A stretch of DNA of 12,552 nt from the NCBI GenBank assembly GCA_020058965.1, contig JAGVCY010000013.1:1-12552 (forward strand), written 5' to 3'. The notes below the pieces were generated by a model. The model saw nothing but the letters and a program-made list of their open reading frames with translations. It had not been told where the DNA came from and did not search any database. The position numbers and the translations under genes are program-made. This document shows positions 1 to 12,552 of the stretch, in pieces. This stretch comes from Candidatus Omnitrophota bacterium (lineage in GTDB: Bacteria; Omnitrophota; Gorgyraeia; 2-02-FULL-51-18; JAGOUK01). Each line of letters opens with the position of its first letter. Position 1 is the stretch's first letter.

Positions 1-514
1 AGAGCGCCTTGTCCTCGACACCCCATATCTCGAAGTCGCTCTTGCCGACCAGATTGTAGTACTCGCTGCCCTTAAGAATTCCCTGGCGCACGAGCTTGCG
101 ACCGACTTCTTCGCGGACTTTTTGGGAAAAGTGGGGTTTGAAGAACCCGACCGAAACATCACCGTCGGCGGCTTCGGTGAAGACGGTGCGAATGTTTTCT
201 TTGGGAAGAATTTCGTCGAGCGCGCGGGCGAGGTTCATCTGACCGGAGTCGTTGGTGTGCGCGTCTTGGATGAGGACAATAAGCTTGTCGGATGCGGGTA
301 CGGGTGAGGAAGCGGCTTTGTAGGCGTCTTCGACGATCGCAACCGATTGGGGGAGCGAAAAGCGCATAACCGGCTGGGGGAGAGCAACCGTTTGGGGCGC
401 GATTTGCGGCGCGGCCATCGAAATTTCCTGACCCAAAAAACTAACAACAAGGACCAGCGACAGGGTTCGTAAATTTGAATTTTTCTTCGTACGCGTCTTA
501 TAATTTAGATTCAT
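1..514 (-). CDS. Secreted protein with IQDAH and GVED motifs, 3'-partial
   Basis: An open frame starts at ATG 512-514 and runs off the left edge, with 171 codons visible. An in-frame TAA lies two codons before the ATG, so this is the first possible start in the frame. Residues 1-35 form a clear signal peptide: a basic N-terminus (NYKTRTKKNSNLR), a hydrophobic core (LSLVLVVSFLG) and an A-x-A-like site (SMA before APQ). The next ATG (418-416) would lose the signal. The mature part has KLIVLIQDAHTNDSGQ (77-92), VFTEAADGD (111-119), GILKGSEYYNL (145-155) and FEIWGVEDKAL (161-171). I associate this motif set with a secreted family frequent in Omnitrophota. His86 and Glu114 recall the layout of ChaN/TIKI-like proteins, but that link is tentative. 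No Shine-Dalgarno sequence is visible before the ATG. The protein probably acts in the periplasm or outside. Confidence 0.85.
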   Translation of the reverse strand, partial: MNLNYKTRTKKNSNLRTLSLVLVVSFLGQEISMAAPQIAPQTVALPQPVMRFSLPQSVAIVEDAYKAASSPVPASDKLIVLIQDAHTNDSGQMNLARALDEILPKENIRTVFTEAADGDVSVGFFKPHFSQKVREEVGRKLVRQGILKGSEYYNLVGKSDFEIWGVEDKAL

Positions 515-662: not shown

Positions 663-719
663 TTATGCCGAGGCTGTGACCCAGGCTAGCGCCATTTGAA
701 GGCCTGCCAGCCGGGCGGC
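663..719 (-). repeat. C-terminal AARLA variant plus hydrophobic tail
   Basis: The chain ends in VAARLAGLQMALAWVTASA and a TAA stop. AARLA (residues 3932-3936, codons GCC GCC CGG CTG GCA) is one residue away from GARLA and sits 13 residues before the stop, in the same position relative to unit F as GARLA has to the other units. The last 13 residues are uncharged and hydrophobic. A degenerate last copy fits a boundary that no longer needs cutting, but chance is possible in Ala/Arg/Leu-rich sequence. Confidence 0.5.
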
Positions 720-3700
720 GACGCTGATTTGGATGAATTTAAGGGTTTCGTTCAAGGCAAACGCTTCATTGCCGCGAATTTTGTTCATCAGCTTGGCCAT
801 GTCCGGATCCAACTGGCCAAATAAAGAAAGGATGGCATCATAAACGCTTCGATCAAGCACCGTGGCCTCCGCAAAAAATTGCTTCCAATCCTCTCCCACC
901 GTTCGTCCCACCGTCTCAAGCGGCACGGCCACCGCCTGGACCCAGCGCGGAACCATTCCGGCCGCGACGGGAGAAAACCGCATGTTGAAGCGGCCTTTGA
1001 TCTTGCCGTTTTCGTTCACATACCAATTGACGACAAACAAGCCATCCGCCGGATCCGCCAACTTGAACGCATTGGGTTCCTTGCGCACGACATTTTGAAT
1101 CAACGCGGCGATTCGCGAAAATTCCGGACCGCGGGACGCCAACCGCGCAACGCTCTCGGGATTAAAATAAAAAGTTCTCGCATGTCCTTCGGGCGCCATC
1201 CGTGCCGTGCGGCCTAGAACCGCCAGCATCAACCGGATCTGTAGTTCCAGCTCATCCGCCGCGAGTTCGGGCCCAAATAATTCATCCACCGGAACCCGAT
1301 AATGCGTATCCAGCGGCTGAACACCGTTGAACCGCCCAAACGCTTCGAGATCCGAGCGAATCCGCTGAAGCGCCGCAAATTTTTGATCGGCAAATTCCCT
1401 GGCCGCGGAATCAGCCGCATTTTTGTAAGCCGCTTCGGCCGTCTTTAGGTCAACCGTAAGCGTCTCGCCCGCGATCTCAAGCCGCAGCCGATCATTTCCG
1501 CCGATTTTTTCCTTAGTGACACGGGCTATCTCCAGCTCACTCCCGTTCATGAACGGTATTTTATAATCCGTCTCCGCGGCCAAATTTTGCGCGATGAACA
1601 CCCGGTAAATAAACGCCTGGATTGTCTGGCTCGGGACTGCCCCGGCCTTGGCCTCGGCCGGCAGCGCCGGAGTCGGCACTCGATCACCCGTTTTGGGCGC
1701 AATCGCCAGCCGAGCTCCGACAGTGCCGGGCAAGCCGCGCGCAGAAAGTGTTTTGGGCAAAAGCAAGCGTGGACCTCCGGCGGTTTTATCCTGGTTAAGC
1801 GCTCGCGCCATCGCATAGACCAGCTTATTCCGCGCCGCGGTCTGATCGTCCAGTTCAAGAACGCTGCCGGATTCAGTTGATTCCAAAAGTGCCGCGAGCA
1901 GCGGGTAAAACGCCGCCGGGCCGGTTCGGGCAAGCCGGGTGATCCCATCGCTTAAGGGCTCCGCAAAATTCCGCGGGTCTTCGACGCGCAGAAGTCCGCC
2001 GCGTTCCATCGCCGCCAATCGCTCCGCGTCCATTTCAGTCGTGTCTCCCAAAAAAATCCGGATCAAAAGACGGGTCGTGAGCGTCGAGGCTGGCACCGTT
2101 TTGGGTTGATCTGTGATGCTGTCGCCGGTGAAATGAAAAATAAGGTGCTTTGTCGCAGGATCCTCCAGCAGGGTGCTGAAATATTCCTGCTTGGACAGGC
2201 CTCCCAGCGGGATGTTCACATAACCGACACCGGCTCGAATCTCATGAGGAACCGGCCGGTTGTCGGACGGATCCCGAAGATCGAGCGCCGTCAGCCGGCG
2301 ATGAATCTCTGCGCCGACTTGCTCGCGCCAAAAGTCCCAGGTGAAGACGCCGGCGGTCAAGGTCGCGTATCGGGAATCTCCTGAATTTTTCAAATGCTCA
2401 AGTTCCTCCCCCGTGACGGAGAGATAACTTCCGGCGCTTTCCTTAATCCCGGTGGTCATAAGGCCGGTGACGATTTCTTCCTCGGGGGTCAGCGGTTCCC
2501 GGGTTCCGGGCGTGCCGTGAATTTTGGCCCGCGCGGAAGACCTGACTTCCAGCAGGCGGCGAAGCACCGGCGCCTGATCCGCGTTCGCGGCGGACAGGAG
2601 ATGTTCCAATAGTTGATCCATCGAATGATACTGTGTAAGCCATTTTTCCGCCGGCAGATCGTCCGGCGGAGTCAGAGCGGACGGGTTAATCTGAAGCGCT
2701 CCAATCTGCCGAATCAAGCTCTCGATTTCCTGATCGGCAGAATCCACGGCAAGCATTTTGGCAATTAGACCGCGCACAACCGGAAGACGAAAATACGCCT
2801 CGATAAACGCCCTCGCGGACGCGCCGAGCGCGGCGGCGCGATTGGAATTACCGTCCGCTGAAGTCCCCAGCGTGGGAATGACCGTCCAATGTCCGTCCGC
2901 AAACAAGCGGCCGTGAACATGGTGTCTCGGGCCAAATACAAATCCCGGGCTTTTCCACTGACCGTCGGCAAGGCCTGTTTCGATCGCCACTTCGGATGTC
3001 GTGTCATTGGCGGGAATGTTGATCCGCGACGGCGAAAGAGCGATCGCCTTTTGGATCGGAGTCAGGTCGCTGCTGCGTCCGACCTCTGCGATGAGCGGTG
3101 CGCAGATATGCTTCCACGCTTCTTCGGCGGTCGAACCGGTCGGAATCCGCATCCGTTCGCCGCGCAGAAGCGCGTCCAGGAGGCGACGGGCCTGAAGCGG
3201 GTTGAGCGGCTTGGCTGGGTCGATAAATGTCGCATCCTTGTCGTACACGCCCAGGACGGCGTGTGCGGACACGTGGATCGCGGGATCGATCCCCGGGCGG
3301 CCGGCGATCCAAAAAGCAGCCGCTCGATCAAAGAGAGCTCGTAATTCCCTCCGCACAAATTCGTTTGACGCGTCATCCGCGGCGATGCTCCCGCCGGCTG
3401 GAATCCGCCGAATATGATCCGCCAATTCCGCCATTACCGCTTCAAGCTCGGCGGCCGTCCAACGGCTCAAATCCGTCTCCCACATATCAAATTCTCCCGC
3501 GAGATAATCCGCCGCTTCAGATACCGTCAGAGCCGAACCAGCCGCAAGTGACGGTTGATTAAAAAAGCGTTCTTCCAACCGCGCCCACTCGACCTCAAAT
3601 CCGGATAACGCCGTCCGCTCCGGCTGTTTTGGCGGATAATACCGAACTCCTCCGACATTCGCGATAGAGGGGCGTTCCAGCGCGCGGGACAAAAGCGCCG

Positions 3701-6700
3701 AATCCTTAGGGTCGGCAAAACTCAAGGACGAAACTTCCTGAAGCGCGACCGACTCGTTGCCGAACATTTCCTGCAAAACCTCCGCCATCATGACCAATAC
3801 GACCTCGCGCTGAACGATCGGCCAATCGCGGCGGTAGCCGACCTGCTCCTCGATGCGGTCCTTGACCTGATAAATCGCTGGAGCGCGGTTCATCCAATCG
3901 CGAATCACAGCGCGGCGCGCGGCCGAATCACTCCCCAGGTAATCTTCCATGGACTCAAAGCCGGCCGGGTCTCCGCCGGAGCGCATCAAGCTCGGTGAGT
4001 TCCGAATATTGCCCGTCAGTAGAATGCTGTGAAGAGCGCGGGCGTTCAAATAGCAGTTGCCTGTGGACATCGCCAGATGCCCGTCATCATAAACAGCCCT
4101 CTCCCCATACCGGAAGCCGCTTCCCTCCAAGGCCTTGATCCGTCCCGACTCCCGGTGCATCGCGAACAAGCCGCCCGTCTCCGCTCCGCCGGCCATAGGT
4201 GTGTACTGAAAAACCGCTACCGCGCCGTCCTGTCCGCCATCATCAGGGTGCAGACGCTCATGCGCCTGCGCGATAAGAATATCGGACATCGGCGCCAAGC
4301 TCGAGCTCTGCTGAAGCCAGATCGTCGCAAATCCGCCGTCTTTCACCACCAGCGCCGCCTTGCCCATAGGCATTCCATTTTGCCGTTCGGCGGCCGGTAC
4401 GAGCGCAAGCTTCTGTTCGTCCAATTCGTAACCGGCAGCCTTCAGAGCCGCTTCAGTCAAAAGTTCGCTATTCGAAACAAGAATTCCCTCCACCGCGCCA
4501 AAGGTGCCAATGGGCGCGAAGCGGTTCAATGGATTCAGACCTGGATTGTCAAACGGAACACGCTCAAGCGGCGTGGCGGGAGCCGAACCGGCAGGCGCGG
4601 TCGCTTCAGCGGATCGGACTTCGGCCAATTTCTCTTCAATATCCCGAATCATCCAATCCAGCGCCGACTGCTGTTCCGCGTGGCGTTGAGCATTCCCTAT
4701 CGGCTTGGTTCCAAAGTCCAGCCGGGCTTCCGCCTGGGTAGGAAGCGTCACACGAGCCAAAGCACTGTCGACTGTTCCGACGCTCTCAAGCCCGGCTTCT
4801 TCACGCAAACGATCCAACGCGGACTCGATCGCTCCTTGAGTGAACGGGCTCGTCAGCACATGGACAAAGGTCTGCCGCCGGTCAGGGAAGCGGGCGAAGT
4901 ATTCCGCCCATTTGCGAAGCAAAAGACCCAAAAAGGTCGCGTCCGGTTCCGACCCACGATGAAACGGCACGACGGGCTTCACACCAGATTGGAACCGCGT
5001 GCCGGCTCCGCCCGCCAGCGTGTAGCCGACGATGCCGCCGCGCGCCATCGCGCGGTCCAACTTCCCAAGCATCGGTCCAAAGTGGTGGCGATAAGCGGTG
5101 CTCCGATCAACCATGAGACGAAGCGCTTCATGCGGCGCAAATTCCGGATTGGGCGCGGCGGTCAGAAGATCCAGCGTCAGCTCGTCTTCCTCGACCGTCT
5201 GTCCGGCGGCCTTTTGTTCCTCGATTCGGCGTTTGAGCCAATCCCGTTCCTTCGCTAGATCGGATAAAAATTGCGTCGTCATCATCGGTTCTTGATGGGG
5301 CACCGTCTCGTACGACTGTATCATCCGCTCCGCTTCTCTGCGGAAGCGTTCCTGACGGCCGTCGTTGAGCAAATGTTGTATTTCTTGGACAACCGCAGCC
5401 CGGTCGCCCCTCAAGGCCAGTTCGGCGATCCTGCGCAGTTCGGATATTTCATAGGAATATTTCCAATCCAGCGTCCCGTCCAGAACAAGTTCTAGAACCG
5501 CGCCGTAATATTCAGGGACGGACATCAGCGTGCGGAGATTGTCTAGATTCTGCCGGACCGCACGACGCACCTGTGAGTGCAAACGAATATTCTGCCCGGT
5601 CGACAGCGGGCGATAATTGGCGGCGATGGCGAGCTGTTTCCATTTTTCCAAATCCCTGGGCGGGATGCGAACATCGGAATCTCCGCGCTGAATTTTGGCA
5701 TGGAGCTCCGGGTCCTCCTCCGCGATGACAGCCATCAGATCCGGATCCATGGTCAGAATTCCGGGAGCGCGCGCGAACGCAGGAATTTCGGACGGATCAG
5801 CCCCGCTGCGGCGAATCGCCTCGGCCGCCTCGGCACTTGAAAAGCGCTCCCGCTTCCAGACGCGCAGAGCGTTCTCCCGAACACGCACCGCATCGGCGGC
5901 ACTGCGCCATGCTTCGACTTCATCCGTCGGCACATTTCTAAAAACCGCTCCGACAGTCGTCACGCGGCTGAAGTAGGGCTTGGGATCGTCTTCAACCGGA
6001 ACGATTTTTCCGGCGCGAAGGGTCGCGTCATGAATGCGGGCAACCGCATCCTTGAGCATGATATCTCGCTGTTCCTGAGGCAATCCTGATGGTAAAAAAA
6101 TCAGCACGCTTCCGGTGGACCTGGCGCCCGTGATTCCGAAGCCCAATCCTTGACTGCCCCATTTTTCGGACAGTCCGGTGAGCGCGTCCAGAATGATGGG
6201 GTTGATGGACACCGGTCCGATTTTTTCCCGCAAGGCCACGGCGGACTGGGACAGCCGGCCCATTTCGTCGGTGCGTCCCACATGCATCGCGCCGATCATC
6301 TCGTCGGTGATCTGCGACCAGGCGTCTGCCGCGTCAACCGCGGAATTGAGCGCGTGTGTGGTATAAAATTCCTCCAACGATGTTTCGGCCGGGTCGGTCA
6401 GGCCAACGCGAATCACATACACGCCCTGATTCAGGGCGGTCAAAGCGGACGGCGTAAGCAGAATCGGACGGATTCGCGGCAGAATCCGTCCCGGATAGCG
6501 CACTTTGCGGCCGTCAGGTAATGTTCCCTCAAGCGCGGAACCGGCCGCAATCACTCGAACACCGCCGCTCGCGGGCGCGGTGTTGTCCTGCGTGCCCGAA
6601 AATTGACCCTGATTGAACGCCACCTCCTGTCCGTTTAAAATTGCCGCGGGCATTCGTTCATTCTGATCCAGCCGCTCCCAGGCCACCTGCCCAATTTGAA

Positions 6701-9700
6701 TCTGCTCATCATTTGCCGTAGCGGCCGGCGAAGTTTGGACGATTCGGCTGAGCGCCAGATCCAACGCGGTCGTGAGCGCGCTGCTCACCGCCACGCCGGA
6801 ACCGGCTTCAATGTTGTCGACATAAAGCCGTATCTTGAGCCCCTTACCAACGCCAAGGAATCCCGCCATGATCCGCCGCACCGACTCCACGGAAGATTCG
6901 GCGCCTCCCCTGCGTGCTAACTCCAGAATTCGCTTGGGAAAAATTCCGGAAGCAATCAGCGTGTTGCGCACCAGATCCGCCTTGGACTTGCTCAAAAGGT
7001 CGTCGGCATTTTTGAACTTCTGCAAAAACCCCATGTCGAGAGATTCGACGGTGATGAATGCGCCGTCCATCGAATCCAGATCAGCGATCTCAAATTGGAT
7101 ACGAACATTGCGGCCCATAGATCCGTCAGACCGGGTCATTTCGTACGATGTGTTCAAAATGTTATAAGTCCATGGGCGGGTTGTGGAAACGCCCGCAAAA
7201 TCGCCGATTCCTCCGGCGGACAGCTCTCCTCGAACGGGCGACTCGACCTCAAACGCCGTCACGGTTCCGTTGCGGTAGGGTGTTGCGGCTTGAGGGGCTC
7301 GCTCGGTATATGTCCGCCAGCCGGCCGCATCCAGTGTGTTGAGCCGATCGATTCGTTCGAGCCATTGGGCGCGGTCGGGATCGAGCTGAAAAAGCTCCAG
7401 CTTGCGCGCATCATCCACATGGAGCTGATAAAGCTTTTTAGCCAGGCCTTCGTAGTATTTGGTGAGCCACTCGGCGGCCTTGATCGAGTGTCCGGCCAGC
7501 CGGCCCTCCGGAAGATTGGGATCGACCGCGAACCAGATAAGCGCTTCCTCAATCGCGCCGCGATACTCCTCGACGGTCTCGACCTCCCGGAGCCGGCGGA
7601 ACACTTTGTAGGATGGGGTGAGGCCGCCGGCCGGATCCATTTTTTCAAGCGGCTTGCCGGCATAGAGCGCGACGCCGTACACATGGGTCAGCCATTTGGC
7701 CGCAAACGCCCGCACGCCGTTGTTGACCCTTAAGTCGCCTTCCAGCCGCGGGTCAAAGATAAGTATGTGAAGCGCCTGCGCGATTCGCATGAGCGAATCA
7801 AAGTCGCGGCCGTGCAAACCCTCGACGGAGGCCTTCAACAGATGCGCGTTGCTGATCCTCAGGTCATAAACGATATTTTCCACCGCGATGCGGCCGATCG
7901 GCGCGGTGCTGACATACTGCTTATAGGCGTTTTCCCAATCCGTCTCCACCGAAGCGACTTCGGGGTCTCCGGATTCCGGCAGATCCGGCATGAGCTCGCG
8001 CGGCGGCGCGTACACAGACCCGCCGACGGTCTTGAAGTAAACGCTTTTGGTGAGCCGGCGCATCTGGCGGACACGGTTGAACGCCATCAGCGCGACGCGA
8101 TAATCACCCGCGTATTCAGGTCTCGACGCACGCGGCGCGCGGCGATCCAGATCGAGCGCGGTCTTGCCGATCCGATAAAACTCCCGCACGATCAAAGTCC
8201 GCGCCGCCTGTGCCTCTTCCATTTTTCCCTGATAAAGCGCCTCCCGATATTCACGCTCATAACGCCCGTCCAGCTCCGCAAACACCTCCGCGAGCGTCCG
8301 ACGCCCGTCTTCAGCTTTTAAACTCATCGGATCCGAACCCAAAATCCCCGATACTTCCGTTTGCGCCAACCTCGCCCCCGCCGATATTCCAGAACCTGGA
8401 ACAACTCCAAGAACAGGCTTTTTTTCGTCTTCCGGTCCGGCTAGCGGGGTCAACAAAACCAAGCCGGGTCCGCCGCGCGAGAGCGGCTCCACTGGGGCAT
8501 TCGGATCAAATTCCTTCAGAACGCCAAATGTATTGATCCGGCGAACCCAGGCAAGTGTCGGGCGTTCCTGAGAACCCTTCAGGACGCTGACATCGGCGGG
8601 AGGAGCCACTTCCACGGATTTAACGGGAACGCTATAAATCTCGATCGACTTTTTCTCATGATCAAAATAGAGATATATCCGCATGTTAAAATCGGACTGA
8701 TTGTCATATTTGAAGGTGTCTGTGATCGCGGTTCCGGCGGCTACAAAAAACGGGCTTTTCACATCCCATCTTTTACCCAAAATCTTGTCCAAGCCGATGG
8801 TCAGTAAGGATATTGCGAAGTTTAGAGCGTCCTCGCTCGTGGTCCATCCGCCATAGCTTGTAAAATCAAGGCGCAGAGCATCCCCCCGGTCCAAGGCCTG
8901 CCAAAAATCTTGTACAGTTTCGTGGTCGCTGATTTTAAGAAATTCAAATGCAGAAACATTCCCTGTTTTTGCCCGCCCTTTCAAAAATACTTCAAGCTCA
9001 GGCTCCACTCCCGCCAACCGCGCTCCGTTGGTAACGGGACCCAATCGAACTTGGGAGAGACCGGCCAATGCCGCCGTGCCCCCGACGATCGTCGAGAAAT
9101 GGGCTGTCATTTCTCCCAGCGGAATCTCGTGAATCTGGACCGGACTGTCATCACCGTCCATGCCGGCGATCACGGTGGTTGTGCGGCGGCCAAGCGGGCG
9201 GCTTTGGCTGATCAGGCGCACGAGAACCGGCTTGAGATCGATGTTGGACTCGGTGTATTCGACATCCAGCACGGCTCGGGTGTCAGTCCCCGGCTTCCAA
9301 ACCCAATATTCTTTGTTGGGACTGCCGGGTTCGCTCAAGTGGCGAATTTGGATGGGCTTTAAAAATTGCCGGAAGACCGGGTCCTCTTTCCACTGCCGCA
9401 CCACCTCCACAGCCTCTTTTGAATCCGGCATCGCTTGAGTCAGATGCGCCAATTCGCCGATCACATCGCCTTCGCCCCTGATTCCCAGACGCACCTCGTC
9501 GGGAGCTCCGTAGTTTTTGATGATCGTGACCGCTCCGTGGGTGATCGCCAACACACTGGCGCCTCCCGCCGTAAGGACCTGATCTCCTTCGCGCATGAGC
9601 ACCGTGCCGGCCGGATATTCGGTGACCGGAAAGCTCGGGATACGCTCAAGAACGAGCTTGCGCATGGCCTGCCGCACTTCCATACCGGCCGTCAACGCTG

Positions 9701-12552
9701 CCGCGACCCGCCGAACATCCTCACGAACACCGATCACGCTTCGCCAAAACTCCGGGTCGGCCCATTGTTCTTCCGACGCGGCATTCACCGTCTCAAAAAT
9801 GCTTGCGGACACCCCTGGGGTTTGATGAGTCCCGTCGTCGCCAAGAATGCCACCAAGTTCCTGCCGGCTGATCGGAATCGGATAACCTTCGGAATCCACA
9901 AGTTCGGCCGGATCATGCGCCAACGAATTATTGCGAACAATGTCCTCGATGGCCGGATCCGCGCCGTCAAGATGCAGCTGCGCCTTGACGATCTGCGCGT
10001 AAGAAACGGGCACGATCCCCCGGCGCACCGCTTCGTTCAGCGACAACAAAAACGCTCCGTACGCCGCGACCAGTTCCTCCCGCGTAAGTCCCGCGCGAGC
10101 GGAGGCATCTTTAAAAAGCTGGTTGAACCGGCCGATTTTACGGATCCAAGGATGATCCCACCGATCGGTGTATCGCGCCTGCGAATCGCGATGAGAAATA
10201 AGTTGAAGCAATTTCCATGCCGGCCGGACACGGCGGAAGCCGACCAAGCGTACCAGCGGACCGGTGATATGTCGGTCGAGCCAGGAGCCGATGAGCGGTA
10301 AATGTGATGGCGCGTCGATCAGCCGCGTGATCGGATTGCGCCGGATAAACTCGCGATAATATCCCGATGCCGCCTCCCAATACGCCTCGCTGTAATCCCC
10401 CGCATCCAAATACGCGATCAAAAATTTATGTGAATCAACTTTTTTGGAATCTTTGCCATACTTGAGCTGATTCACCCGCGTCGCCATTGCCAGAATCTCG
10501 CGGCGCAGTTCTTCCCGCTCCTCCGGCGAGACATCTCCCCACGCCAGCCGCGCTCCGCCGGGAACGTGGCGAATGGAAAAACGAGTGACGGGAGCCGCGT
10601 TTTTTGAATTCAAGGGAATGCCGTAAGCGCCGCGGCCCGTCTGAAGCGCTATGCGCTGTACGGTGGTGGGCGTTGTGATTTTGATGACCTCCGTCTTGGG
10701 CGCAGCTTTTGTGCCTTCGAAAATTTTCATCTCGCTGAAGGTCCCAGGGTCCTGTGACACGGGTATGAGTTGAAGTCCGAGCTTCTCTCCCTCTTCAAGG
10801 GTGTATTCAATCACGAGCTGGTCGCCGGCTTTGAGCTCGAGATTCGGGCTGTAATCCACCCACACGGCGCTGGAAGCATTGTCACGGGCGGTGTAACTGC
10901 CGCGCGCGCTCGCCGGCTGACCGCCCCAGATTTCCCTGCCTCCGACCGGAATTTTTTGAGCGTCGGCGGGACCTGCGGGCTTGAACCAATCCTTAAAGAG
11001 CCCCGGCACGTCCCCTTGAATACCCCACGCGTGACCGCCGCGCTCGTTGAGAACCTTCCAGGCCTCGTTGGACCACTCGAACGCGGTGAACGAACCCCAC
11101 CATCCGCTGGCCTCTGCCGCCGGTTGAACCGCCTTGAAGTACGCCGCGTCGTTCTGGCCGGGAGCGCCGATTTCCGTCACAAAAAACGGCAGTTCGATCC
11201 GGCGCGAGAGCTCAAATACCCGCGCCAGCTCCGACTGAACGCCGGAGGCGTTGCCGGTGTATTTGCCGCGTTGGAAGTCAATTTCCGGATAAACATTTCC
11301 GCCGATGCCGCTCCACACGCTCTTGGTGCCGGCGGGCAGGCTCTTCAAAAGCGCCGGGTTGGTCCCGGTCGCGCGAATCAAATCCGCCTCGGCGTCCGTC
11401 AGCGACCCGTGCCCCAAAAGCACCGGATGCGATGTTCTCAAACCCGCTTCCGTCTGCCGAACGAGCGCGGCCAGTCCCGCGGCGTACGGGTAAAGCCGCG
11501 CTCTGGGCAGGAATCCCTGCTTCAACTCCGCCGCCGAATAGTTCATTTCGTTGCCAATCACCCACGCGAAGAGCCATGGTTCCCTCGCGTACGTTTTGAC
11601 CCAATCCTGAACGCTCCGGGCGATCTTGCCGTGTTCGGCCGGCTTGTCCTCCGCCAAACGCGGTGAACCGGGCAGATCTTCCTGTCCGGCCCAATGCCCC
11701 GCCATCACGCGCAGGCCGTACAATTGGTAAGCCCGCCCCAGAATCTCCTTGGTTTTGCGAATGTCGGCCGCGTCGGCCAAAGGCAAGTGATACACGCGGA
11801 TCAGCTTGATCCCGTGTTGTTGGGTCATCACGCGTCCGTCATCCTTGCCGCGCGCGCTCAACCCCAAACGCTTCAACACCGGATCGTTCGCCGGAAGCAG
11901 CGGCGCAAAAAGCTCCGCCATTTTGCCGTGCGTGTAATAAGCAATGTTCTTGCCGTCTTCCGTCGGCTGATACACGACACCGGTCAAGTCGGACTTTTTA
12001 AGCTCCACTTCTTTCGCCGCCGCGCCGTCCTTATGAAAAATTTTAACCGTCCCCTTCGCCGGATCCGCGTCCACACGGACGGTCTGCGCCTTCGCGCCCG
12101 CCAAGGCCGCCGCGGCCGCCATAACCGCAGACACCCAACCCCTCCACCGCTCCGCCAATCTCGCCCCGCCGACACCGCGTCTTTTGGCTTCGGCTTGGAG
12201 CGCCTCGATCAATCCGGGTCGAACCGCATTAATTTTTTCTCGCTGCTGCAAAAGAAGGCTCCCCCACACCTCTCTTCGATGCTTGATGAGCGGAGATTCG
12301 GTCTGAACCGAACCGCCGGTAGCCAGCGGATCTCCCTTATTGATGGCCCCATTCAGTTTATAAACATCGGCTTCGGATTTTCCTGCCATCAAAAAAACAT
12401 TGTTCACCGGCAGACTCACCAGCCACCAGGGTTGACGAGACTGGGGATGCGCCACTAGGTCCAGACTGACCGCTTCCGGCAGGTCCAAAATCTTGCCGGA
12501 CAACTCCAACAAAAGATTCTGCGCCCGCGCGACGCCGGCCGCGTCCCCCGCC
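663..12552 (-). CDS. Giant multidomain protein, probable polyprotein, 5'-partial
   Basis: One frame runs from the right edge to a TAA stop at 663-665, giving more than 3,960 residues in the window. The first TTG (12512) is not a convincing start: 13 further sense codons precede it up to the edge, no stop intervenes and I see no Shine-Dalgarno sequence, so the gene almost certainly begins outside. Residue numbers in all entries count from that TTG. In order the chain holds an upstream tail (to 120), a signal-like segment plus TIM-barrel glycosidase and beta-sandwich (121-652), a cNMP-binding-like unit (658-1162), an orphan unit (1168-1378), a long sugar-activation unit with GHMP kinase, UDPGP-type nucleotidyltransferase and HAD-like regions (1384-3598), and a C-terminal orphan unit (3604-3931). 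GARLA pentapeptides separate these blocks. Antisense frames are long but look like GC-driven shadows. The reading frame is certain. The polyprotein interpretation is inference; a single uncleaved giant protein is the alternative. Confidence 0.95.
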   Translation of the reverse strand, partial: AGDAAGVARAQNLLLELSGKILDLPEAVSLDLVAHPQSRQPWWLVSLPVNNVFLMAGKSEADVYKLNGAINKGDPLATGGSVQTESPLIKHRREVWGSLLLQQREKINAVRPGLIEALQAEAKRRGVGGARLAERWRGWVSAVMAAAAALAGAKAQTVRVDADPAKGTVKIFHKDGAAAKEVELKKSDLTGVVYQPTEDGKNIAYYTHGKMAELFAPLLPANDPVLKRLGLSARGKDDGRVMTQQHGIKLIRVYHLPLADAADIRKTKEILGRAYQLYGLRVMAGHWAGQEDLPGSPRLAEDKPAEHGKIARSVQDWVKTYAREPWLFAWVIGNEMNYSAAELKQGFLPRARLYPYAAGLAALVRQTEAGLRTSHPVLLGHGSLTDAEADLIRATGTNPALLKSLPAGTKSVWSGIGGNVYPEIDFQRGKYTGNASGVQSELARVFELSRRIELPFFVTEIGAPGQNDAAYFKAVQPAAEASGWWGSFTAFEWSNEAWKVLNERGGHAWGIQGDVPGLFKDWFKPAGPADAQKIPVGGREIWGGQPASARGSYTARDNASSAVWVDYSPNLELKAGDQLVIEYTLEEGEKLGLQLIPVSQDPGTFSEMKIFEGTKAAPKTEVIKITTPTTVQRIALQTGRGAYGIPLNSKNAAPVTRFSIRHVPGGARLAWGDVSPEEREELRREILAMATRVNQLKYGKDSKKVDSHKFLIAYLDAGDYSEAYWEAASGYYREFIRRNPITRLIDAPSHLPLIGSWLDRHITGPLVRLVGFRRVRPAWKLLQLISHRDSQARYTDRWDHPWIRKIGRFNQLFKDASARAGLTREELVAAYGAFLLSLNEAVRRGIVPVSYAQIVKAQLHLDGADPAIEDIVRNNSLAHDPAELVDSEGYPIPISRQELGGILGDDGTHQTPGVSASIFETVNAASEEQWADPEFWRSVIGVREDVRRVAAALTAGMEVRQAMRKLVLERIPSFPVTEYPAGTVLMREGDQVLTAGGASVLAITHGAVTIIKNYGAPDEVRLGIRGEGDVIGELAHLTQAMPDSKEAVEVVRQWKEDPVFRQFLKPIQIRHLSEPGSPNKEYWVWKPGTDTRAVLDVEYTESNIDLKPVLVRLISQSRPLGRRTTTVIAGMDGDDSPVQIHEIPLGEMTAHFSTIVGGTAALAGLSQVRLGPVTNGARLAGVEPELEVFLKGRAKTGNVSAFEFLKISDHETVQDFWQALDRGDALRLDFTSYGGWTTSEDALNFAISLLTIGLDKILGKRWDVKSPFFVAAGTAITDTFKYDNQSDFNMRIYLYFDHEKKSIEIYSVPVKSVEVAPPADVSVLKGSQERPTLAWVRRINTFGVLKEFDPNAPVEPLSRGGPGLVLLTPLAGPEDEKKPVLGVVPGSGISAGARLAQTEVSGILGSDPMSLKAEDGRRTLAEVFAELDGRYEREYREALYQGKMEEAQAARTLIVREFYRIGKTALDLDRRAPRASRPEYAGDYRVALMAFNRVRQMRRLTKSVYFKTVGGSVYAPPRELMPDLPESGDPEVASVETDWENAYKQYVSTAPIGRIAVENIVYDLRISNAHLLKASVEGLHGRDFDSLMRIAQALHILIFDPRLEGDLRVNNGVRAFAAKWLTHVYGVALYAGKPLEKMDPAGGLTPSYKVFRRLREVETVEEYRGAIEEALIWFAVDPNLPEGRLAGHSIKAAEWLTKYYEGLAKKLYQLHVDDARKLELFQLDPDRAQWLERIDRLNTLDAAGWRTYTERAPQAATPYRNGTVTAFEVESPVRGELSAGGIGDFAGVSTTRPWTYNILNTSYEMTRSDGSMGRNVRIQFEIADLDSMDGAFITVESLDMGFLQKFKNADDLLSKSKADLVRNTLIASGIFPKRILELARRGGAESSVESVRRIMAGFLGVGKGLKIRLYVDNIEAGSGVAVSSALTTALDLALSRIVQTSPAATANDEQIQIGQVAWERLDQNERMPAAILNGQEVAFNQGQFSGTQDNTAPASGGVRVIAAGSALEGTLPDGRKVRYPGRILPRIRPILLTPSALTALNQGVYVIRVGLTDPAETSLEEFYTTHALNSAVDAADAWSQITDEMIGAMHVGRTDEMGRLSQSAVALREKIGPVSINPIILDALTGLSEKWGSQGLGFGITGARSTGSVLIFLPSGLPQEQRDIMLKDAVARIHDATLRAGKIVPVEDDPKPYFSRVTTVGAVFRNVPTDEVEAWRSAADAVRVRENALRVWKRERFSSAEAAEAIRRSGADPSEIPAFARAPGILTMDPDLMAVIAEEDPELHAKIQRGDSDVRIPPRDLEKWKQLAIAANYRPLSTGQNIRLHSQVRRAVRQNLDNLRTLMSVPEYYGAVLELVLDGTLDWKYSYEISELRRIAELALRGDRAAVVQEIQHLLNDGRQERFRREAERMIQSYETVPHQEPMMTTQFLSDLAKERDWLKRRIEEQKAAGQTVEEDELTLDLLTAAPNPEFAPHEALRLMVDRSTAYRHHFGPMLGKLDRAMARGGIVGYTLAGGAGTRFQSGVKPVVPFHRGSEPDATFLGLLLRKWAEYFARFPDRRQTFVHVLTSPFTQGAIESALDRLREEAGLESVGTVDSALARVTLPTQAEARLDFGTKPIGNAQRHAEQQSALDWMIRDIEEKLAEVRSAEATAPAGSAPATPLERVPFDNPGLNPLNRFAPIGTFGAVEGILVSNSELLTEAALKAAGYELDEQKLALVPAAERQNGMPMGKAALVVKDGGFATIWLQQSSSLAPMSDILIAQAHERLHPDDGGQDGAVAVFQYTPMAGGAETGGLFAMHRESGRIKALEGSGFRYGERAVYDDGHLAMSTGNCYLNARALHSILLTGNIRNSPSLMRSGGDPAGFESMEDYLGSDSAARRAVIRDWMNRAPAIYQVKDRIEEQVGYRRDWPIVQREVVLVMMAEVLQEMFGNESVALQEVSSLSFADPKDSALLSRALERPSIANVGGVRYYPPKQPERTALSGFEVEWARLEERFFNQPSLAAGSALTVSEAADYLAGEFDMWETDLSRWTAAELEAVMAELADHIRRIPAGGSIAADDASNEFVRRELRALFDRAAAFWIAGRPGIDPAIHVSAHAVLGVYDKDATFIDPAKPLNPLQARRLLDALLRGERMRIPTGSTAEEAWKHICAPLIAEVGRSSDLTPIQKAIALSPSRINIPANDTTSEVAIETGLADGQWKSPGFVFGPRHHVHGRLFADGHWTVIPTLGTSADGNSNRAAALGASARAFIEAYFRLPVVRGLIAKMLAVDSADQEIESLIRQIGALQINPSALTPPDDLPAEKWLTQYHSMDQLLEHLLSAANADQAPVLRRLLEVRSSARAKIHGTPGTREPLTPEEEIVTGLMTTGIKESAGSYLSVTGEELEHLKNSGDSRYATLTAGVFTWDFWREQVGAEIHRRLTALDLRDPSDNRPVPHEIRAGVGYVNIPLGGLSKQEYFSTLLEDPATKHLIFHFTGDSITDQPKTVPASTLTTRLLIRIFLGDTTEMDAERLAAMERGGLLRVEDPRNFAEPLSDGITRLARTGPAAFYPLLAALLESTESGSVLELDDQTAARNKLVYAMARALNQDKTAGGPRLLLPKTLSARGLPGTVGARLAIAPKTGDRVPTPALPAEAKAGAVPSQTIQAFIYRVFIAQNLAAETDYKIPFMNGSELEIARVTKEKIGGNDRLRLEIAGETLTVDLKTAEAAYKNAADSAAREFADQKFAALQRIRSDLEAFGRFNGVQPLDTHYRVPVDELFGPELAADELELQIRLMLAVLGRTARMAPEGHARTFYFNPESVARLASRGPEFSRIAALIQNVVRKEPNAFKLADPADGLFVVNWYVNENGKIKGRFNMRFSPVAAGMVPRWVQAVAVPLETVGRTVGEDWKQFFAEATVLDRSVYDAILSLFGQLDPDMAKLMNKIRGNEAFALNETLKFIQISVAARLAGLQMALAWVTASA
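720..1703 (-). other. Unit F: 328-residue C-terminal orphan unit
   Basis: Residues 3604-3931 form the last unit. It opens with a Pro/Ala linker (3604-3626), then a beta-rich piece (ELEIARVTKEKIGGNDRLRLEI, ETLTVDL, 3659-3689), a charged helix (3696-3726), a mixed segment with FYFNPESVARL (3781-3791), a beta hairpin (GLFVVNWYVNENGKIKGRF, 3824-3842) and a final helical part (3858-3930). I recognise no family and see no catalytic signature. Confidence 0.45.
1704..1718 (-). repeat. GARLA motif 5 (residues 3599-3603)
   Basis: Encodes G-A-R-L-A in the context LPGTVGARLAIAPKTG, with codons GGA GCT CGG CTG GCG. It is flanked on both sides by Pro-rich flexible sequence and marks the end of unit E. Confidence 0.75.
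1719..2807 (-). other. Unit E, C-terminal region of unknown function
   Basis: Residues 3236-3598 have helices (for example EIESLIRQIGAL, MDQLLEHLLSAA, PVLRRLLEVRSSARAK) and a central alpha/beta-like piece (RYATLTAGVFTWDFW, GVGYVNIPLGGLS, KHLIFHFTGDS). The end is a Pro/Gly/Leu-rich linker (TAGGPRLLLPKTLSARGLPG) running into GARLA motif 5. No family is recognised. Confidence 0.4.
2808..3275 (-). other. HAD-phosphatase-like region
   Basis: Residues about 3080-3235 resemble a HAD-superfamily phosphatase. AVLGVYDKDATFIDP carries the D-x-D-x-T signature (Asp3091, Asp3093, Thr3095). After a helix, MRIPTGS (Thr3125) resembles motif II of the v-I-x-T-G-R type. A Lys at 3155 could be motif III, and LGTSADGNSN near 3215-3224 is a weak match to the acidic G-D-x-x-N-D motif IV. 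HAD phosphatases of this kind remove phosphate from sugar phosphates, which would fit beside a sugar kinase and nucleotidyltransferase. Motif IV is poor, so the call is tentative. Confidence 0.45.
3276..4007 (-). other. Unit E region after the nucleotidyltransferase, unknown
   Basis: Residues 2836-3079 hold mainly helical sequence (for example RRAVIRDWMNRAPAIYQVKDRIEEQ, REVVLVMMAEVLQEMF) and a short beta-like piece with YYPPKQP near 2958-2964. UDPGP enzymes often have a C-terminal dimerisation or beta-helix region after the catalytic core, but this stretch is not obviously a beta-helix. No motif identifies it. Confidence 0.35.
4008..5045 (-). other. UDPGP-type sugar-1-phosphate nucleotidyltransferase domain
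   Basis: Residues about 2490-2835 match the Rossmann-like nucleotidyltransferases of the UTP-glucose-1-phosphate / UDP-N-acetylhexosamine pyrophosphorylase family. The nucleotide loop is at 2497-2517 (YTLAGGAGTRF, then Lys2512-Pro2513 in VKPVVPF). It is followed by TFLGLLLRKW (compare T-F-L-D-L), a strand and helix at 2549-2571 (FVHVLTSPFTQGAIESAL), a P-x-G-type segment at 2667-2680 (PIGTFGAVEGILVS), a strand with GG at 2766-2783 (VAVFQYTPMAGGAETGG), and STGNCYLNARALHSIL at 2816-2831 (compare N-T-N-N-x-W-x-N-L). The enzyme would join a sugar-1-phosphate and an NTP to give an NDP-sugar in the cytosol. An Ala/Pro-rich insert at about 2634-2648 is unusual. Which nucleotide or sugar is used is unclear. 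Confidence 0.7.
5046..5987 (-). other. Helical connector between kinase and nucleotidyltransferase
   Basis: Residues 2176-2489 are helical, with many Arg, Glu and Ala residues (for example RENALRVWKRERF, DPDLMAVIAEEDPELHAKI, QVRRAVRQNLDNLRTL, RDWLKRRIEEQKAAGQ). UDPGP-family nucleotidyltransferases commonly carry a helical N-terminal extension before the GG-x-GTR loop, so part of this may belong to the next domain. No separate family is recognised. Confidence 0.4.
5988..7235 (-). other. GHMP-type sugar kinase domain, L-fucokinase-like
   Basis: Residues about 1760-2175 show the GHMP kinase layout in order. Motif 1 is near 1764-1783 (LSAGGIGDFAGVSTTRPW, compare the S-x-G-R-x-D-x-x-G-G-x-x-D pattern of fucokinases). 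The ATP-loop motif 2 is at 1901-1913 (IEAGSGVAVSSAL, compare P-x-G-S-G-L-G-x-S-S). A QDN at 1975-1977 followed by SGGVRVI matches the W-Q-D-Q-x-G-G segment of fucokinase and Fkp. A degenerate glycine motif 3 is at 2126-2141 (GITGARSTGSVLIFLP, compare G-A-G-G-G-G). Such enzymes phosphorylate sugars at C1 with ATP in salvage pathways. Motifs 2 and 3 differ from consensus (Pro to Glu1902 in the loop; GGGG to RSTG), so activity or substrate may have shifted. The sugar cannot be read from the sequence. Confidence 0.65.
7236..8363 (-). other. Unit E, N-terminal helical region of unknown function
   Basis: Residues 1384-1759 are dominated by charged, Arg/Glu/Ala-rich helices (for example EVFAELDGRYEREYREALYQ, FNRVRQMRRLTKSVYF, KYYEGLAKKLYQLHV, DRAQWLERIDRL). 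It leads into the GHMP-kinase-like domain with no GARLA between. Helical regions can precede sugar kinase cores, but I see no diagnostic motif. The sequence EGRLA at 1669-1673 resembles the boundary motif but lies within helical sequence, so I treat it as chance. Confidence 0.4.
8364..8378 (-). repeat. GARLA motif 4 (residues 1379-1383)
   Basis: Encodes G-A-R-L-A in the context GISAGARLAQTEV, with codons GGG GCG AGG TTG GCG. It follows a Pro/Gly-rich flexible linker, where it would be exposed to a protease, and precedes the long sugar-activation unit E. Confidence 0.75.
8379..9011 (-). other. Unit D: 211-residue orphan unit with low GC
   Basis: Residues 1168-1378 form a compact block bounded by GARLA motifs 3 and 4. 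Residues 1186-1300 look like an alpha/beta fold: a helix-strand start (FLKISDHETVQDFWQALDRG, ALRLDFTSYGG), a helix near 1226-1246, then beta strands (FFVAAGTAITDTFKY, MRIYLYFDHEKKSIEIYSV). Residues 1336-1378 form a Pro/Gly-rich linker before the next motif. I recognise no family. By hand count, 8641-9000 is about 45% GC, against about 62-63% in two sampled 60-base stretches (5041-5100, 11041-11100). This unit may have been inserted later than its neighbours. Confidence 0.5.
9012..9026 (-). repeat. GARLA motif 3 (residues 1163-1167)
   Basis: Encodes G-A-R-L-A in the context PVTNGARLAGVEP, with codons GGA GCG CGG TTG GCG. It separates the cNMP-like unit from the small low-GC unit D. Confidence 0.75.
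9027..10541 (-). other. Unit C: orphan helical region plus cNMP-binding-like domain
   Basis: This 505-residue block (658-1162) lies between GARLA motifs 2 and 3. It begins with a charged helix (661-683), followed by Tyr/Trp-rich helical sequence (699-725) and an Arg/Leu-rich stretch (729-775) that is not hydrophobic enough to be a clear membrane segment. Residues 800-950 are mostly helical. A cyclic-nucleotide-binding-like fold occupies about 955-1038, and a beta-rich tail with aromatic residues (EYWVWKPGTD, ALGRR-type turns) runs to about 1160. Outside the cNMP-like part I recognise no family. Whether this unit acts as a sensor is inference from that one domain. Confidence 0.5.
9399..9650 (-). 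other. Cyclic-nucleotide-binding-like (CRP/CAP-type beta-roll) domain
   Basis: Residues 955-1038 follow the cNMP-binding pattern: YPAGTVLMREGD matches the F-x-x-G-x-x-I-x-x-x-G-D opening, SVLAITHGAVTII matches the central strands with the conserved Gly, and RGEGDVIGELAHL matches the G-x-G-D-x-x-G-E phosphate-binding-cassette start (Gly1013, Asp1016, Gly1019, Glu1020). The Arg that normally contacts the cyclic phosphate, in R-x-A-x-V, appears as Lys1032 in KEAVEV, so binding of cAMP or cGMP is doubtful. No helix-turn-helix is evident after it, unlike a CRP regulator. Confidence 0.6.
10542..10556 (-). repeat. GARLA motif 2 (residues 653-657)
   Basis: Encodes G-A-R-L-A in the context HVPGGARLAWGDV, with codons GGA GCG CGG CTG GCG. 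It falls right after the last beta strand of the CBM-like domain, a natural C-terminal boundary for the glycosidase unit. The next unit opens with a charged helix (EEREELRREI). Confidence 0.75.
10557..10940 (-). other. Beta-sandwich accessory domain, CBM-like (unit B)
   Basis: Residues 525-652 alternate polar and hydrophobic residues as in a beta sandwich (SSAVWVDYSPNLEL, DQLVIEYTLEEGEKLGLQLI, VQRIALQTG, TRFSIRHV). The pattern, including an N-terminal stretch with Trp and a final strand of the form RFSIRHV, resembles carbohydrate-binding modules found at the C-terminus of secreted glycosidases. It ends directly in PGGARLA. I cannot name a CBM family, and a purely structural domain is possible. 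Confidence 0.45.
10983..11990 (-). other. Clan GH-A-like TIM-barrel glycoside hydrolase domain (unit B)
   Basis: Residues about 175-510 read as an eight-stranded barrel. Strand-like segments lie near 177-182 (GVVYQP), 235-244 (IKLIRVYHLP), 267-275 (LRVMAGHWA), 313-323 (WLFAWVIGNEM), 364-371 (VLLGHGSL), 398-411 (VWSGIGGNVYP), 441-452 (LPFFVTEIGAPG) and 472-485 (WGSFTAFEWSNEAW). The Asn321-Glu322 pair after strand 4 fits the acid/base of clan GH-A retaining glycosidases, and Glu447 at the end of strand 7 fits the nucleophile. Both acids are present, so the domain may be active. The family (GH2-, GH5- or GH17-like) and substrate cannot be fixed by eye. The signal-like segment just before it suggests action outside the cytoplasm, on glucan or another polysaccharide. 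Confidence 0.7.
12084..12152 (-). other. Internal signal-peptide-like segment of unit B
   Basis: Residues 121-143 have the three-part layout of a Sec signal peptide: a short basic start (ERWRG), a hydrophobic Ala/Val-rich core (VSAVMAAAAALAGA), then an A-x-A site (AKA) before QTVRV. It sits directly after GARLA motif 1, so cutting there would place it close to a new N-terminus, where a Sec signal would work. What follows is a glycosidase, a type of protein often exported. If the chain is not cut, the same segment could be an internal membrane anchor or a buried helix; the core is only about 14 residues. Confidence 0.55.
12153..12167 (-). repeat. GARLA motif 1 (residues 116-120)
   Basis: Encodes G-A-R-L-A in the context GVGGARLAERWRG, with codons GGG GCG AGA TTG GCG. 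It separates unit 0 from the glycosidase unit and lies immediately before a hydrophobic signal-peptide-like segment. Presence is certain; a role as processing site or boundary is inferred. Confidence 0.75.
12153..12552 (-). other. Unit 0: C-terminal tail of an upstream unit
   Basis: This is the end of whatever unit lies upstream: 13 codons before the numbering origin plus residues 1-120. Residues 10-45 look like alternating beta structure (LPEAVSLDLV, WWLVSLPVNNVFLMAG). Residues 72-112 are helical and basic (IKHRREVW, QQREKINAV, EALQAEAKRRG) and lead straight into the first GARLA motif. I recognise no family. Because only the tail is visible, the size and function of this unit cannot be judged. 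Confidence 0.5.

Follow-up and report, generated by a model that had tools for sequence, protein, structure and literature searches.

A pentapeptide recurring between modules of giant genes points to probable polyproteins in one order of Omnitrophota

Results

Organisation of the locus

The window, that is, the whole stretch of 12,552 nucleotides that was analysed, comes from a lineage of tiny uncultured bacteria, one order of Omnitrophota. It carries a giant ORF on the reverse strand, an uninterrupted frame of 3962 codons that the contig edge cuts at its 5' end; the true start lies outside the window (Table 1). A second gene, also on the reverse strand, begins downstream of the stop codon of this ORF. 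Five exact copies of the pentapeptide GARLA divide the giant chain into modules. The first-pass annotation had described these copies, and an AARLA near the end of the chain, with residue numbers 13 too low because counting began at the first TTG. The copies themselves, the lengths of the pieces between them (532, 505, 211, 2,215 and 328 residues) and the codons listed for them agree with our analysis. Its chance estimate of about 0.03 exact copies is also close to ours, as the composition of the chain gives 0.036 expected copies compared to five observed. Every other pentapeptide occurs at most three times in the ORF.

Table 1. Features of the window and their coordinates
Feature	Residues	Position (strand)	Remarks
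Giant ORF		663..12551 (-)	3962 aa, 11.9 kb; 5' end cut by contig edge
End of preceding module	1-128	12168..12551 (-)	
GARLA 1	129-133	12153..12167 (-)	
Sec-type signal ERWRGWVSAVMAAAAALAGAKA	134-155	12087..12152 (-)	Adjoins GARLA 1; end point by eye
Module 1	134-665	10557..12152 (-)	Glycoside-hydrolase-like by eye (IGNE, TEIG stretches)
GARLA 2	666-670	10542..10556 (-)	
Module 2	671-1175	9027..10541 (-)	
GARLA 3	1176-1180	9012..9026 (-)	
Module 3	1181-1391	8379..9011 (-)	Family search: none found
GARLA 4	1392-1396	8364..8378 (-)	
Module 4	1397-3611 (2215 aa)	1719..8363 (-)	No above-cut-off family
GARLA 5	3612-3616	1704..1718 (-)	
Last module	3617-3962	666..1703 (-)	
AARLA	3945-3949	705..719 (-)	Within C-terminal tail
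C-terminal tail		666..755 (-)	Ser-Ala end, a signature of these ORFs
Start of next putative polyprotein		2..514 (-)	Sec-type signal and QDAH domain; cut by contig end

The window ORF gave two Pfam matches, both below cut-off, and no match at E 0.1 in NCBIfam or PDB sequence searches. Module 1 has no Pfam match and has homologues in four other giant ORFs. A weak cyclic-nucleotide-binding match was seen in module 2 (residues 977-1048, 18.7 bits, below cut-off). Module 4 contains a GGAGTRF stretch that presumably resembles those of nucleotidyltransferases, and none of its 2215 residues belongs to a motif site. Within it AAGSAL occurs twice (AGSAL at residues 2003 and 3004), which may be chance or a further border. 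A PDB search of L062, another giant ORF of this class, found nothing. The features of these ORFs that are described below suggest that the window giant ORF is probably the C-terminal part of a polyprotein.

The motif is enriched far beyond the window

The recurrence of GARLA was confirmed and extends well outside the window. A DNA pattern encoding the peptide was scanned in 20 relatives and then in 285 genomes of the phylum. Compared to the reversed pattern, the excess was clear in part of the window's order, for example in genomes G003 (84 versus 9) and G015 (72 versus 19), and was not clear in the window's own genome (50 versus 74) or in G005 (154 versus 149). We attribute the lack of excess in genomes of the same order to the reversed pattern being a poor control in GC-rich genomes, and peptide anagrams were therefore used as the control. 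Outside the window's order, inspection of the 285-genome list by eye revealed no excess of the size seen in G003 and G015, the largest being 23 versus 11 in G058.

Frequency was determined in a sample of G003 comprising 39 loci, namely contigs 1-32, each taken whole or up to 20 kb from its start, and seven middle slices. The sample amounts to 710 kb (including 20 kb of N) with 564 ORFs and 208,468 aa. The two most over-represented pentapeptides in this sample were GARLA (43 copies, 0.58 expected) and AARLA (29 copies, 0.70 expected), both ahead of P-loop words. A comparison with shuffled sequence had been proposed as a test of the first-pass annotation, and here GARLA occurs 43 times, whereas its 59 other anagrams average 0.92 copies. 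Nearly all GARLA copies (40/43) lie within the 14 sampled ORFs of at least 1500 aa. [GA]AR[LM]A is present in 12 of these 14 ORFs, which together hold 32,071 aa, or ~15% of the sampled ORF sequence. Four ORFs of G005 (9,512 to 12,700 aa) contain 79 GARLA compared to 0.57 expected; at 28.5 to 38 kb, they exceed the 20 kb that defines giant ORFs in Omnitrophota. A whole-ORF search of named genomes gave 56 pattern matches, none of which was confirmed.

For the position of the motif, we assembled 64 ORFs that bear it, each 1000 aa or longer, from nine genomes of the order. They total 218,121 aa (longest 12,700 aa) and hold 529 copies of [GA]AR[LM][AST] at a median spacing of 283 aa. Since most of these loci were selected for containing the motif, the set informs on position and not on frequency.

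The motif lies at the borders of unrelated modules

Fifteen ORFs or pieces of ORFs were scanned whole against Pfam, keeping the best stretch per family above cut-off and leaving out weaker matches. None of 149 motifs fell inside the 25 Pfam spans, compared to 8.7 expected, and none of 5000 random shifts reached this result, which bears out the earlier placing of the peptide outside domains. For six of the 25 domains, the start lies no more than 40 aa downstream of a motif (2.5 expected; 165/5000 shifts reach this). The domains sharing single reading frames of this class are unrelated, as in a polyprotein: PfkB, DnaJ, HPr with PPDK_N and GH77 with Kdo kinase were found above the Pfam cut-off across these ORFs, and a single ORF of G005 combines NTP transferase, GT2, methyltransferase and CheR. 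For the majority of modules, no family was recognised.

Similarity between different giant ORFs provided a second view of the borders. With the N-terminal domain excluded, 24 similarity blocks were obtained, and 49 of their 86 ends lie within 50 aa of a motif compared to 19.6 expected, a value reached in 0/1000 shifts. An initial test, which included the N-terminal domain and counted every HSP, placed 41 motifs inside blocks compared to 196 expected; in the same test, HSP ends showed no significant enrichment at distances of up to 25 aa from a motif (93/630 versus 65.9 expected; 79/1000 shifts reach it). Counted per motif without the N-terminal domain, no depletion inside homology blocks was seen (45 versus 40.9 expected), perhaps because the blocks often begin or finish on the motif itself. 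One and the same module was found in varied company and at varied places, and the modules are therefore shuffled. Together, these results reveal a recurring border sequence of the kind expected of a polyprotein.

Export-like signals follow the motif

Sec and Tat signals act at the N-terminus of a protein. At a first look, hydrophobic segments were found within 40 aa after 11/191 motifs, before 2/200 motifs and at 79/5577 random positions. A simple rule devised after this first look defines a signal-like segment as a positive residue followed by 11 uncharged hydrophobic residues. Such segments follow 46 of 416 motifs, precede 10 of 432 and occur at 375 of 13,324 random positions (2.8%; p ~3e-14 and 1e-7). 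By this rule they have the positive n-region and uncharged h-region of Sec and Tat signals, and part of them also have AxA, a lipobox or RRxFL. By eye, several of the 46 resemble plain membrane spans rather than cleavable signals. Also by eye, Sec-type signals ending in ALA or AQA were recognised in L066 (residue 2679), L130 (1344) and L149 (1574), and a lipobox-like GAGC after the motif in L127 (827). Tat-type signals, likewise judged by eye, follow the motif in L062 (954 and 1868) and L148 (1638), and a separate RR search added L129 (1986) and L111 (6458). Strict RR-F matches numbered 18 in the 64 ORFs, seven of them continuing into an uncharged stretch. Of these seven Tat-like signals, four start within 4 aa after a motif and three have no motif within the 30 aa before them.

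The glycosidase-like module of the window was observed in five giant ORFs of four genomes, always after a motif and a signal of its own. The homologues, 28 to 38% identical to window module 1, are in L062 and L148 (both G003), L146 (G009) and L147 (G007). The preceding motif is [GA]ARL[AS] in all five, and the signal is Sec-like in the window, L146 and L147 and Tat-like in L062 and L148. A motif also lies within ~200 aa behind the block in every case except L147. A sixth, distant relative (L140 of G001, 25% identity) has no motif in the 687 aa available, and further distant matches are mostly ordinary ORFs of 408-870 aa. Among 7999 candidates scored, no relative of the window module, stand-alone included, was found at E 1e-6. 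A separate pair of modules from G006 and G007 has kept both the Sec signal and its AQA site.

The J-domain of L091 begins at a GARMA. The Met of this motif (residue 630) aligns to chain residue 1 in two of four DnaJ 2 chains (4j80 and 6psi), and the other two are off by one residue, these being end points of local alignments. The motif border is thus accompanied by sequence signs of new N-termini, as a polyprotein would be. Since export signals need a free N-terminus and recur after the motif, the motif would be cut, and this would take place in the cytoplasm before export. Cutting is likewise argued by modules of cytosolic type (DnaJ, HPr, kinase, methyltransferase, GH77), which sit in the type of chain that is headed by an export signal.

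The chains share a first domain and a C-terminal end

All 19 ORFs of the 64 with a complete N-terminus have a QDAH...GGYH domain near the start, and a signal h-region was detected by the simple rule at 16 of these starts. The first motif follows at residues 496-827 in 18 of the 19 and at residue 1852 in the remaining one. The domain is ~500 aa long with QDAH...E...GGYH motifs, as in the N-termini of L066, L091 and L062. Matches to it number 28 in the window's own genome, 32 in G003 and 2 to 32 over 16 genomes of the order, counts in which some domains register as two pieces, compared to 0 to 2 in four genomes outside the order. Stand-alone relatives of ~500-560 aa occur in other Omnitrophota and in Elusimicrobiota. 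At the other end of the chains, 46 of 47 complete C-termini finish in Ala, the exception being L067. An Ala-Ala or Ser-Ala end stands behind a short hydrophobic or amphipathic stretch in 43 of the 47. Such [AS]A ends are found in 6/305 motif-less ORFs of at least 300 aa and in 0/18 of at least 800 aa. We take these C-termini to be reminiscent of the signals of tail-specific proteases.

The motif is constrained as a peptide and biased in its codons

Within the 64 ORFs, the Arg of the motif is nearly invariant (GARLA 298, GAKLA 1). Position 4 is mainly Leu or Met (GARMA 32, GARAA 5, GARFA 3), and position 5 is mainly Ala, Ser or Thr. Variants were found in related assemblies. In JACPAX, ORF L168 carries 8 copies of GSRxA (0.2 expected), in which the fourth position varies freely, and ORF L153 has GxRLA (5 copies, 0.07 expected), while GSRMS occurs twice on a contig of nS315bin20 (L181). 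Word counts show no comparable separator in the QDAH-headed ORFs L217 (CP070780), L196, L219 and L226 (1.7 to 3.6 kaa).

The first-pass annotation had proposed conservation at the level of the peptide and not of the DNA, which holds in part. In the G003 sample, each of the 43 15-mers coding for GARLA lies within an ORF and in its sense frame, 71 G003 copies of the motif comprise 58 distinct 15-mers, and DNA information is almost nil beyond about three codons on either side. Synonymous codons at the motif, on the other hand, are biased. In each of the eight genomes counted, CGG for Arg and TTG or CTG for Leu exceed expectation, and they do so strongly in the larger samples; the CGG excess is weak in G009 (4/18 versus 2.3 expected). 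Arg is CGG in 62 of 121 G003 motifs compared to 18.9 expected, and TTG or CTG stands at position 4 in 249/330 copies over the eight genomes compared to ~136 expected. Arg-Leu elsewhere in G003 ORFs is unbiased (CGG 68/376). The G003 motif also prefers GCG for Ala and GGC for Gly. Proteolysis gives no explanation for this bias; it may stem from a DNA consensus inherited from an ancestor, from gene conversion when modules are exchanged or from an effect on translation.

Discussion

A model of processing and its alternatives

The first-pass annotation had read GARLA as a peptide that separates unrelated folds and serves in processing or sorting. The enrichment, the borders, the signals and the constant ends support this reading, with cleavage as its predicted step. 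These sequences are best read as a lineage-wide bacterial polyprotein system, and this reading is probably correct. According to this model, [GA]AR[LM][AST] would be a processing site between independently folding modules, and a sequence-specific, Arg-requiring endoprotease of the cytoplasm would cut it while the chain is being translated or shortly afterwards. Modules in which the motif is followed by a Sec, Tat or lipoprotein signal would then be exported while the rest would stay inside. Each chain would start with an exported QDAH...GGYH domain and end with a helix finishing in [AS]A. We infer the cleavage, its cellular place, the scissile bond and the protease as parts of this model. The bond would most likely be the one after Arg (GAR/LA, the slash marking the cut), which is favoured by the near-invariance of Arg, the variants in JACPAX and nS315bin20 and the start of the J-domain. 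Less likely, the cut may fall between Ala and Arg, which would give every module a small-Ala end like the C-terminus of the chain itself. In its broadest form, which we consider somewhat likelier than its opposite, the whole order would produce much of its proteome (~15% of the sampled ORF sequence in G003) in the form of polyproteins cut at [GA]AR/[LM][AST] by one Arg-specific protease. There would be up to ~30 precursors per genome, of up to 12,700 aa and with one family of head domain. In-frame fused 'operons' would replace separate genes, and modules would use export signals of their own. The 2215-aa spacing in the window, the three of seven Tat-like signals without a motif in the preceding 30 aa, the block count without depletion, the codon bias and the lack of C11 and C14 matches in 20 genomes are points against the cutting model. 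So are, for module 1, the lack of relatives at E 1e-6 among the 7999 candidates, the motif-less L140 and the mostly ordinary ORFs among the further distant matches.

Another explanation is that the giant proteins stay uncut, as a scaffold or surface machine, with the motif as a conserved linker or docking peptide and the signals as anchors or relics of gene fusion. The flanks of the motif are mildly rich in Pro, Ser and Gln, as in linkers, some of the signal-like segments resemble membrane spans, and surface or adhesion roles are favoured for giant ORFs of Omnitrophota in passages of PMC10066038. It is nevertheless unlikely, because what comes after the motif includes Tat motifs, a lipobox-like GAGC and AxA sites, because the five diverged glycosidase-like copies keep the position of the signal while switching between Sec and Tat, and because enzymes of cytosolic type share this class of chain with exported ones. 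Repetition by chance in a chain rich in Ala, Arg and Leu, as the window chain is, has next to no probability and was rejected on the counts in the window (5 versus 0.036 expected), in the G003 sample (43 versus 0.58) and in G005.

Two further explanations draw on the codons. If the motif were an internal translation start at TTG, CTG or ATG, the modules could be made separately from one mRNA. Such starts would fit the excess of TTG and CTG at position 4 in all eight genomes, the coincidence of the J-domain start with the Met of GARMA and the slightly frequent GGA at position 1 in the window's own genome (9/23 versus 6.2 expected). We consider them very improbable, as 39 of 121 G003 copies use CTT, CTA, CTC or TTA and CTG outnumbers TTG in G006, G007 and G015. 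GGA, which a Shine-Dalgarno-like GGAG needs, is avoided in G003 (6/71 versus 19.4 expected), AARLA has no GG, and separate starts do not need a frame that is open for up to 12,700 codons. Little probability likewise attaches to the five codons being mainly a DNA or RNA element without a peptide role, such as a recombination site for module shuffling or a mobile linker. The synonymous preferences that are common to genomes and the occurrence of modules in different company speak for such an element, and the confinement of the 15-mers to the sense frame, their diversity and their almost uninformative flanks speak against it.

Cutting at the motif would have several consequences. At least one class of giant bacterial ORFs would be strings of ordinary proteins rather than giant proteins, and the viral polyprotein strategy would have a genome-wide bacterial counterpart. 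A new site-specific protease would be predicted. In silico cutting at GARLA would resolve many giants of unknown function into individual enzymes that can each be tested, and the system would bear on how proteomes are made and regulated in very small, possibly host-associated bacteria.

Relation to known systems

In viral polyproteins, a fixed motif is cut by a dedicated protease. They resemble the Omnitrophota chains in having unrelated folds in one frame, a short border peptide and release of the units, the last of which is proposed here. The present chains differ in that they are encoded by bacterial chromosomal genes, with many polyproteins per genome by our reading, in that modules have Sec- or Tat-type signals, and in that they contain no recognised protease domain. 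The fbcH gene of Bradyrhizobium encodes a single chain that holds an export signal internally and is cut by signal peptidase into two proteins. The internal signal is shared with the present chains, whereas fbcH is a single two-protein case that depends on signal peptidase and lacks a shared separator. MARTX-type toxins are self-processing bacterial toxins with multiple effectors. They too carry several modules per chain that are freed by proteolysis, but each is one secreted protein with an autoprotease domain, without a genome-wide motif.

Giant ORFs of over 20 kb are described from five Omnitrophota classes in passages of PMC10066038; annotated domains are scarce in them and their roles poorly understood, with adhesion or predation favoured. 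A passage of PMC12057145 calls the post-transcriptional integrity of such ORFs unclear. As far as these passages go, those ORFs resemble ours in phylum, in exceeding 20 kb and in having few annotated domains. They differ in interpretation, as a surface, adhesion or predation role is favoured there, whereas here the separator, the common first domain and the common C-terminal residue point to cutting. A passage of PMC11573180 considers cleavage of some huge proteins possible, with proteases and motifs hard to predict, whereas passages of PMC12583861 do not touch on the matter. In the openly licensed PMC literature, we found no report of polyproteins in Omnitrophota or of the term 'bacterial polyprotein', and the matches listed for the word GARLA were all unrelated.

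Candidate proteases and the QDAH domain

Clostripain- or caspase-type processing at Arg was set aside, as neither C11 nor C14 proteases had a match in any of 20 genomes, several of which are incomplete. The first domain of the chains was considered as a protease, since its QDAH...E...GGYH motifs possibly resemble, as we take it, the TIKI/TraB-like metalloprotease superfamily. It matched no Pfam family, and five relatives gave no TIKI/TraB Pfam match at E up to 10. A PDB profile search with the domain gave three matches only, with unrelated names and a best E of 0.19. With no family and no credible PDB match, this candidate was also set aside. One frame that encodes a QDAH domain, G002:C140:9913-11124, has a single internal TAG.
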